Assembly (NCBI GenBank): GCA_001800135.1
Contig: MGUU01000010.1
Span: 337,495-372,754 of the forward strand
Direction of reading: 5' to 3'
Length of the DNA: 35,260 bases
DNA from: Elusimicrobia bacterium RIFCSPLOWO2_02_FULL_39_32
GTDB taxonomy: Bacteria; Elusimicrobiota; Elusimicrobia; 2-02-FULL-39-32
The notes under the pieces were generated by a model, which did not search any database, was not told where the DNA came from, and was given only the letters and a program-made list of their open reading frames with translations. This document shows positions 13,295 to 14,427 of this stretch, piece after piece (position 1 is the stretch's first letter; the number at the start of each line of letters is the position of its first letter). Position numbers and translations under genes: made by a program.

Positions 13295-13323
13295 TTGACC
13301 AGTTTTGTTCATTATGATATAGT
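13295..13323 (+). promoter_or_regulatory. Promoter of tRNA-fMet
   Basis: TTGACC (13295-13300), a 17-nt spacer and TATAGT (13318-13323) preceded by TGA. The mature tRNA begins 6 nt after the -10, so almost no 5' leader is made. Confidence 0.72.
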
Positions 13324-13362
13324 AATTTTGCGGGGTGGAGCAGTCTGGTAGCTCGTTGGGCT

Positions 13363-14026
13363 CAATACCGCGAAATTAAAATGAATACAAGCCACAAAGG
13401 AAGTCTTGCAGAACAGGCAGTCACTCTTGAAGCTCTGAAGCGTGGCTGGGGGGTTCTAAAACCTATTGGAGATTGTTTGCCATATGATGTTGTCTTCGAT
13501 ATTGAAGGAACTCTCGTTAAAATTCAAGTTAAGCTTGCATGGTTTGATGATACGCGTGAAAACTACGTCATTGATAACCGTCGAACTAAAACAAATCGAT
13601 CTGTAATGATTCGAGAAGTTTATGCTCTTACAGATTTTGATTTTGCAATTGCTTATTTAATGGATATTAATGTGTTTTATGTTTTTCCTGTGGATGTATT
13701 TATCAGTTATGCCAGTGAAATTCATTTAGTGGAAGCTGACAAGCGTCAACGAAAACCTCGTTCTGTTATTTATCGTGATGCCTGGGATTTAATTTCGCAA
13801 TGGGCTGCGCATAAGGAAACTGATGCGCGAACTTCTGTCAAATTCGGGGAAGCCAGTAATGAGGTAATCCCGAGCCAAGCTGTGCTAGTTTAAACATCAG
13901 CACAGAAGGTGTAGAGACTTAATGGCAGACACCCTAACAGCGGCGTAAGTCGTATGAGGGTGAAGAGAAAGTCCAGACCACAAATCTTAAGTTAAACTTA
14001 GGAGCCGCGAAAGCTGTAGTGGTATG
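13363..14026 (+). ncRNA. Group I self-splicing intron in tRNA-fMet
   Basis: The 664-nt intron lies between exon nucleotides T33 and C34; it follows a T and ends in G, as group I introns require. The pairings can be traced. P1 joins exon 13359-13364 to 13801-13806, with the splice-site U13362 on G13803. An 11-bp extension joins 13370-13380 to 13788-13798 and closes a loop that holds the ORF. P2 is 13807-13812/13823-13828, P3 13834-13839/13924-13929 and P4 13844-13848/13869-13873. P6 is 13880-13886/13899-13905. P7 is GACTT 13916-13920 with AAGTC 13969-13973. P8 is 13930-13935/13957-13962 and P9 13985-13991/13997-14003. P10 pairs CAT of exon 2 with ATG at 13800-13802. The core resembles the tRNA-type (IC3) introns of cyanobacterial tRNA-Leu. 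Confidence 0.92.
13381..13893 (+). CDS. Intron-encoded PD-(D/E)XK homing endonuclease (I-Ssp6803I type)
   Basis: The 170-residue protein lies wholly inside the tRNA-fMet group I intron. It has the restriction-like fold signature: Glu11 in the first helix, then Asp36 (LPYDVVFD) and Gln49-Val-Lys51 (KIQVKLAW). Those spacings match, as I recall, the catalytic residues of I-Ssp6803I, the endonuclease of the cyanobacterial tRNA-fMet intron. The predicted role is to cut intronless tRNA-fMet genes at the anticodon region so that the intron is copied in. The start codon sits at the end of the extended P1 stem with no Shine-Dalgarno. The last ~35 codons coincide with ribozyme elements P1' to P6, and the stop is in the P6 loop, so the sequence is constrained twice. 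The frame is intact. Confidence 0.9.
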   Translation: MNTSHKGSLAEQAVTLEALKRGWGVLKPIGDCLPYDVVFDIEGTLVKIQVKLAWFDDTRENYVIDNRRTKTNRSVMIREVYALTDFDFAIAYLMDINVFYVFPVDVFISYASEIHLVEADKRQRKPRSVIYRDAWDLISQWAAHKETDARTSVKFGEASNEVIPSQAVLV

Positions 14027-14067
14027 CATAACCCAAAGGTCGCTGGTTCAAATCCAGCCCCCGCAAC

Positions 14068-14111
14068 AAAAATCGTCCTGGCCATTCAAAGGTCAGGGCG
14101 ATTTTTTTTTT
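14068..14111 (+). terminator. Rho-independent terminator of tRNA-fMet
   Basis: The stem AATCGTCCTGGCC (14071-14083) pairs with GGTCAGGGCGATT (14091-14103) around loop ATTCAAA, with two G-T pairs, followed by a T run at 14102-14111. An A run on the 5' side could let it also end the leftward transcript of the 14143-16233 genes. Confidence 0.9.
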
Positions 14112-14142
14112 GATAGATTCTGTTTGTCTTTTTGGAATAAGG

Positions 14143-14427
14143 TTAGTCGTGGATTTCAAACCATGGAACATTTTCTTTTCCATGGGGATGGAATTCTGTG
14201 GGATAAACTTTGTTCTCAACAATTTCATACCAAGGATATTGAATTGGGGATTTTTGAGGATGAGTTGGAGACGGATAGATTTTATTTTCCCTAATCTGAT
14301 ACCAAGGGTCTAAATCTTGACCATCAGGATGATCTTGTGTGGTAAAAATAAAGCCTTCTTTTATTTCAAAGGTGGCTAGATTTTGCATTCCTTTAGGATG
14401 AAATTTTGTATTGAAAAGTTTTGACAT
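14143..14427 (-). CDS. Small protein of imperfect HP-G...PWYEI repeats, unknown function
   Basis: The 94-residue protein consists of four imperfect ~22-residue repeats, best seen as PWYEIVENKVYPTEFHPHG and PWYQIRENKIYPSPTHPQ. The fixed features are a central Tyr/Phe-Pro or Thr-Thr, His-Pro, and a Pro-Trp-(Tyr/Phe)-x-Ile end. There is no signal peptide or membrane helix. Its ATG overlaps the stop of the kinase-like gene by one base (TAATG), so translation is coupled and a linked role is likely. I recognise no named family. The internal repeats and coupling argue that it is a real gene. Confidence 0.72.
   Translation of the reverse strand: MSKLFNTKFHPKGMQNLATFEIKEGFIFTTQDHPDGQDLDPWYQIRENKIYPSPTHPQKSPIQYPWYEIVENKVYPTEFHPHGKENVPWFEIHD

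Follow-up and report, generated by a model that had tools for sequence, protein, structure and literature searches.

The locus described here raises the question of how a bacterium can make initiator tRNA from a gene that is cut in two, and how the interrupting element came to be there. The gene lies on the forward strand at 13329-14066 of the window, by which is meant the whole stretch of DNA analysed (35,260 nt of contig MGUU01000010.1 from Elusimicrobia bacterium RIFCSPLOWO2_02_FULL_39_32), and is an initiator tRNA (CAU) into which a group I intron of 664 nt is inserted after U33. We consider it very likely, with a probability of about 0.93, that a group I ribozyme restores the split tRNA-fMet and that an endonuclease encoded in the P1 loop drives homing of the intron into intronless tRNA-fMet genes.

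The split gene was reported neither by standard ARAGORN nor by the Rfam tRNA model when the window was searched. ARAGORN with introns allowed gives a tRNA-Met(cat) at 13329-14067 with an intron of 664 nt, in agreement with an earlier sequence-only reading of this DNA, which had proposed an interrupted initiator tRNA with an intron of that length. Joined in silico, the exons form a cloverleaf (-30.6 kcal/mol), with the discriminator base at 14066. The parts of the locus are as follows.

13295..13323, forward strand: sigma-70-like promoter of the tRNA-fMet gene, TTGACC-17-TATAGT, predicted solely from its consensus match (the region holds 3 such sites, shuffled versions of it 1.9 on average)
13329..13362, forward strand: tRNA-fMet 5' half, positions 1-33, last base U33 (ARAGORN, boundary analysis)
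13363..14026, forward strand: group I intron, 664 nt, final G (Rfam, ARAGORN, site comparison)
13370..13380, forward strand: 5' strand of the P1 extension, GCGAAATTAAA, a perfect 11-bp complement of 13788-13798
13381..13893, forward strand: I-Ssp6803I-type PD-(D/E)XK homing endonuclease, 170 aa, in loop L1 (homology to PF11645 and 2OST)
13788..13798, forward strand: 3' strand of the P1 extension, complement of 13370-13380
13800..13802, forward strand: P10 strand AUG, pairing with C34, A35 and U36 of the 3' exon (sequence)
13803..13806, forward strand: internal guide sequence GGCU, whose first G pairs with U33 (sequence)
13807..13828, forward strand: P2 hairpin (changes on both sides in 9/9 pairs)
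13834..13929, forward strand: P3 (13834-13839/13924-13929), enclosing P4, P5 and P6 (RNAalifold, alignment covariation)
13916..13973, forward strand: P7 (13916-13920/13969-13973), the guanosine-binding pseudoknot, and P8 (13930-13934/13958-13962) (covariation)
14027..14066, forward strand: tRNA-fMet 3' half, from C34 (anticodon CAU) to discriminator A73, CCA untemplated (ARAGORN, boundary analysis)
14068..14106, forward strand: intrinsic terminator (predicted)

The 5' exon ends in GGGCU and the 3' exon reads CAUAACCC. A terminal intron G is compatible with the U33/C34 boundary alone, and the introns of three further loci (L104, L129 and L051) start with T, so that C34 must come from the 3' exon and the site is U33|C34. 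Boundary analysis and the T-starting introns therefore agree with the insertion after U33 that had been read from the sequence, and the U-G pair at the splice site, the terminal G and P10 were likewise borne out. Bacterial initiator tRNAs usually carry a C1-A72 mismatch; the window tRNA has a U1-A72 pair (13329 and 14065).

The Rfam group I intron model (RF00028) matches positions 13770-13996 with 59.4 bits, above the gathering cut-off of 50 (E 8e-13). The match begins at 13770, and the model misplaces P1, because the ORF sits in the P1 loop. Structure was examined in 38 of 76 extracted ribozyme cores, cyanobacterial ones included, which are alignable throughout at a mean column identity of 67%. 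On these, RNAalifold recovered P2, P3, P4, P5, P6, P8 and P9-type helices. It paired part of the guide sequence with a P7 strand and did not form P7, and this pseudoknot was added by hand before the pairing statistics were taken. Across the 38 cores, 98.2% of 1966 cells are paired, compared with 32-41% when partners are slid, and changes on both sides occur in 35 of 52 core pairs. Every P7 cell is paired (100%); four P7 pairs out of five are invariant, and the fifth is exchanged from U-A to G-C in seven sequences. The GGGC at 13802-13805, in the guide sequence, and the terminal G are invariant in 38/38 aligned cores, a figure taken from the alignment since the guide script sought GGGC and left 4 of the 76 introns without a located guide. 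P10 is kept less than strictly elsewhere, the partner of A35 being U in 59 of the 72 introns measured. The group I core is conserved and is not a chance fold; the full core proposed from the sequence is upheld by Rfam score and covariation alike. Group I introns of tRNA genes have been classed as subgroup IC3.

Whether the host depends on this ribozyme turns on its other tRNA genes. The host assembly (2.52 Mb, 97% complete, 27 contigs) gave 44 tRNA matches, 43 of them typed by ARAGORN. Two of the typed tRNAs carry CAU, and their sequences read as Ile2-like and elongator-Met-like. The 44th match showed no initiator-like halves, and a search of the host genome for an intact tRNA-fMet anticodon arm, at up to two mismatches, returned 0 matches. 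An intact second tRNA-fMet, which the sequence-only reading had named as evidence against itself, was thus not found in this 97%-complete genome. The missing copy implies that splicing is probably needed for life of the host, with an intact copy in the missing part of the assembly conceivable.

Other RNA genes of the host and its class appear to be interrupted as well. ARAGORN calls a tRNA-Asn(GUU) with a group I intron in the host (L001 1459-1778, on G000:C24), with no intact tRNA-Asn among its typed tRNAs, and the same at eight more loci of the class (L035-L038, L040 and L044-L046). Further split genes among its calls are labelled tRNA-Phe, Thr, Leu, Arg and Ser, and some of these labels may be wrong. 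The host 23S rRNA holds two further group I introns (L002 and L003, on G000:C22).

The ORF within the intron matches PF11645 (PDDEXK_5) at E 4.6e-44, with 150 bits against a cut-off of 26, and the PDB chain 2OST at E 1.1e-58 over ORF residues 3-149, the sole solved chain at E up to 1. These matches support the PD-(D/E)XK endonuclease claimed earlier. The 2OST chain, a 'putative endonuclease' of 151 residues which we take to be I-Ssp6803I, is 63% identical to the window ORF. E11, D36, Q49 and K51, presumably the active-site residues, are all present, as alignment confirmed for the residues named in the sequence-only reading. In a family of 70 proteins, E11 is kept in 69 (K in L075) and the other three in 70/70; 2OST has Q at position 11, presumably a deliberate inactivating mutation.

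At its 3' end the ORF passes through the P1 strand, P2, P3, P4 and P5 and stops within the P6 loop. The overlap with the ribozyme measures ~106 nt, and the last ~35 codons are coding and ribozyme at once. In a comparison with G005, a genome of the same family, fourfold sites are unchanged at 15/15 positions within this overlap versus 29/47 elsewhere in the endonuclease (Fisher p 0.003). Judged by these sites, the RNA is under selection within the overlap. The two endonucleases share 83% amino-acid identity despite 62% fourfold identity, by which measure the protein is under purifying selection. Single-protein searches of genome_contigs, viral_contigs and plasmids found no relative. Phage records gave only partial matches of 31-37%, in 3 records, and an alignment search of viral_contigs gave one partial match at 39%.

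From what is known of these families, splicing and homing may proceed as follows. The ribozyme in the transcript would bind guanosine at P7. It would cleave behind U33, which the guide GGCU holds in a U-G pair; P10 would then align C34, and the two halves would be joined into tRNA-fMet. The endonuclease would cut a near-palindromic sequence of the anticodon stem-loop in intronless tRNA-fMet genes, and repair of the cut gene would copy the intron into it.

Traces of such mobility can be sought in the host family, where the same gene occurs in several states. In G001, a sister species in the same genus, an intact tRNA-fMet stands between the same neighbours, with flanking proteins 87-98% identical, and both window tRNA halves equal this intact tRNA up to base 74. 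G004, of the same family, provides a second empty allele, with the same two genes flanking its intact tRNA-fMet. G005 has an intron between the same neighbours as the window. Proteins encoded around it are 58-81% identical to those of the window in six compared genes, and others are down to 46%. Outside the ribozyme overlap, the 29/47 unchanged fourfold sites of the endonuclease (62%) compare with 147/461 (32%) in the six neighbours (Fisher p 8e-5), a coarse comparison since the neighbours are close to saturated at such sites. These counts are signs that the window and G005 introns share a more recent ancestor than the genes flanking them. The lateral movement proposed earlier thus gains from the empty alleles and from an endonuclease more alike between genera than its flanking genes.

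Two further members complete the picture. G003, of the same family, has a 259-nt tRNA-fMet intron that retains of the ORF only the start and the ribozyme-overlapping 3' end. The window's other genes were not found in 18 kb around this intron, which therefore lies at another place. In G007 the tRNA-fMet is intact and the window's neighbours are absent from the stretch examined. Sequence comparison thus supports a pattern of gain, decay and absence as expected of a mobile homing intron.

Several smaller differences surround these alleles. The split tRNA-fMet of G005 (L188) has two acceptor-stem mismatches, so not every copy is obviously functional, and an intact copy was not found in that 80%-complete assembly. 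In G001 (L184) the intact tRNA-fMet gene encodes its CCA; ~63 nt downstream the tRNA 3' end is repeated, together with the shared terminator, as if an insertion had occurred there. Co-conversion of the 3' flank, which would have marked a homing event and was considered for the terminator shared by the window and G005, was set aside, the same terminator being present in G001 ~60 nt further down. Downstream of the tRNA terminator, G001 has ~900 bp that the window lacks at 14107-14145; a comparable stretch occurs in G005.

In the phylum as a whole, the endonuclease or a remnant of it was found in 4 of 340 Elusimicrobiota genomes. An exact-pattern search for the ribozyme core returned 11 of the 340, namely the four fMet introns already found and seven tRNA-Leu introns. 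This search missed L051, so the fMet intron count in Elusimicrobiota is a lower bound. L051 is a second tRNA-fMet of G021 (G021:C63), split at U33|C34 by a diverged, ORF-less group I intron of 237 nt and mislabelled by ARAGORN as tRNA-Pro.

A scan of genome_contigs gave 76 loci under 16 phylum-level labels including Elusimicrobiota. One of these labels, 'Deltaproteobacteria', is unplaced; a Phormidesmis locus, likewise unplaced, was counted as cyanobacterial. Most non-cyanobacterial loci come from metagenome assemblies, so labels resting on a single locus may be wrong; named strains among them are Spirosoma fluviale DSM 29961 and Neolewinella lacunae KCTC 42187. The intron lies in tRNA-fMet at 76 of the 78 loci examined, with the site at U33|C34 in all that were found, including 74 of the 76 scan loci. 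The exceptions are L125, at a contig end, and L112 (Cytophagales), which has a homologous endonuclease and no tRNA-fMet in the stretch examined. The site scripts looked for a 5' half with CU at its end and a 3' half that opens with CAUAA; the first resolved 70 of the 78 loci, all 70 with a terminal intron G, and a looser one resolved 76. Comparison with the cyanobacterial site, suggested in the sequence-only reading, showed it to be identical.

The position of the ORF varies. Among the 76 introns (74 scan loci, the window and G003), it lies inside the intron in 35 and outside but nearby in 40, 33 of them cyanobacterial, and is deleted in one (G003); L130 and L136 were relabelled by hand as having the ORF outside. 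Behind ORF-less fMet introns of cyanobacteria (for example L085, L091 and L121), the DNA encoding the C-terminal tails of free-standing endonucleases resembles ribozyme P2-P4. In a test of 33 of the 41 free-standing endonucleases (the 40 with outside ORFs and L112; the other eight were too short), 16 tails beat all 40 codon shuffles and 17 did not. All 16 are cyanobacterial, nearly all presumably from genera of Nostocales, and they are mutually related. Such ribozyme-like tails suggest that the endonuclease gene escaped from inside the intron. A wider reading is that the I-Ssp6803I intron is a pan-bacterial selfish element that jumps between phyla via the nearly invariant initiator anticodon loop. 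The intron-borne endonuclease would be followed by loss, as in G003, and by escape to a separate gene beside the tRNA, with a cyanobacterial group keeping a ribozyme-fossil tail. We regard this reading as a whole as reasonably probable, with less assurance than the splicing and homing proposed for the window.

Which lineage supplied the intron to the host is a separate matter, and trees bear on it. In the protein tree (70 rows, after exclusion of 7 of the 77 endonucleases for a length below 120 aa), the window and G005 pair at 100/99 and then group weakly with Nitrospirota and Armatimonadota (94/76). The G021 protein pairs with one from Vulcanimicrobiota (100/98). In the ribozyme tree (76 rows, bootstrap not settled), the window, G005 and G003 stand together at 96/84, next to a Chloroflexota copy (92/85); the Armatimonadota copy sits with cyanobacteria (94/88), unlike in the protein tree. 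The G021 copy is placed apart from that of the window in both. Approximately unbiased (AU) tests did not reject one Elusimicrobiota clade (p 0.167 with 3 proteins, p 0.205 with 4 ribozymes) or one clade of all cyanobacterial ribozymes (p 0.366). In the ribozyme test, joining the window group to all cyanobacterial copies cost 33.8 log units (p 0.0685). A cyanobacterial donor, implied in the sequence-only reading, is not supported, since the window copy stands outside cyanobacteria in both trees, although by this p value it is not strictly rejected. By its sixteen phylum-level labels, the intron family is not cyanobacterial.

The same observations bear on other histories of the locus. The intron could be an old, vertically inherited possession of the ancestor of the host family, lost in G001, G004 and G007, with little or no lateral transfer. 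The grouping of the window, G005 and G003 ribozymes would fit such descent, as would the shared chromosomal locus of the G005 and window introns and the AU tests that leave one Elusimicrobiota clade standing. However, the endonuclease has kept about twice the fraction of fourfold sites that its neighbours have, the locus is empty in a species of the same genus, and the G021 copy goes its own way in both trees, with Vulcanimicrobiota for its protein, so that we hold vertical descent to be unlikely. An assembly chimera or contaminating cyanobacterial DNA might be suspected in an assembly of 27 contigs, but the intron is found at 351 kb of a contig of 373 kb, between genes that keep their order and high identity in the sister species, and the separate G005 assembly has the intron between the same neighbours; this explanation is barely credible.

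Splicing and homing themselves can also be doubted. If the window copy were a pseudogene, a dead insertion, translation would be initiated by another, unseen tRNA. Splicing is here a prediction from sequence, the G005 copy has its acceptor-stem mismatches and ~3% of the genome is missing from the assembly. Yet the search of the host genome turned up no further initiator-like tRNA, the window copy has intact core helices, which its relatives conserve, the tRNA halves match the intact G001 gene up to base 74, and promoter-like and terminator-like sites are present, all of which makes a dead insertion very improbable. The intron might instead splice with an inactive endonuclease and now be immobile. 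Homing endonucleases often decay, and G003 has kept its tRNA-fMet intron while losing nearly all of the endonuclease. In the window, by contrast, the ORF is full length with its four catalytic residues, and the comparison with G005 points to purifying selection, so an immobile intron, too, seems improbable, if not to the degree of a dead insertion. Restoration of the tRNA by the ribozyme, with homing driven by the P1-loop endonuclease, accordingly stays the preferred reading.

If so, the host's only detectable initiator tRNA gene would depend on a ribozyme, at a locus that standard tRNA annotation misses. The host family, with empty, occupied and endonuclease-deleted versions of tRNA-fMet (the first two at the same locus), may allow a homing cycle of gain and loss to be traced in real genomes. 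The same element, at the same nucleotide under sixteen phylum-level labels, would make a good system for studying cross-phylum homing. In literature searched by title and abstract opening, no description of a cross-phylum spread of I-Ssp6803I/fMet introns was found, subscription papers aside, and no report of group I introns or self-splicing in Elusimicrobia or Elusimicrobiota.

Related systems are known, in particular from cyanobacteria. PMC1995217 lists the 655-nt intron of Synechocystis PCC 6803, with its 150-aa ORF, as the PD-(D/E)XK case. In PMC8450103, the missing fMet or Ile2 gene of 36 genomes is attributed to group I introns; the examples named are two cyanobacteria in the case of fMet, and Acidovorax and Burkholderia in that of Ile2. 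PMC5733544 names ORF-bearing fMet introns of cyanobacteria and discusses their lateral transfer, and bacterial group I introns are reviewed in PMC3984707.

The Synechocystis tRNA-fMet intron shares with the window its host gene and ORF placement, and its endonuclease, I-Ssp6803I (2OST), belongs to the same family as the window ORF, at the 63% identity given above. In Synechocystis salina L115, the site is the same U33|C34, the intron is 655 nt and the ORF 150 aa; the window ORF is longer, at 170 aa, because L115 has a stop shortly behind P2 that is missing from the window, where the frame stays open through P3-P5. The window differs in its host phylum, Elusimicrobiota, and its copy is nearer to those of Nitrospirota, Methylomirabilota and Armatimonadota (protein tree) or Chloroflexota (ribozyme tree) than to cyanobacterial ones. 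Cyanobacterial ORF-less fMet introns, such as that of L085 from Nostoc, have the same site, ribozyme family and a homologous endonuclease; in the L085 type, however, the endonuclease gene lies outside the intron, whereas that of the window lies inside. The tRNA-Leu introns of other Elusimicrobiota (L195-L201) have the same small tRNA ribozyme type, and seven share the core motif with the window, but they interrupt another tRNA and, at ~200 nt, are too short for a window-type endonuclease. The type of element is thus already known from cyanobacteria, and the present analysis adds that the insertion site is identical, that no intact copy was found, that empty and decayed alleles exist, and that the spread reaches far beyond cyanobacteria.
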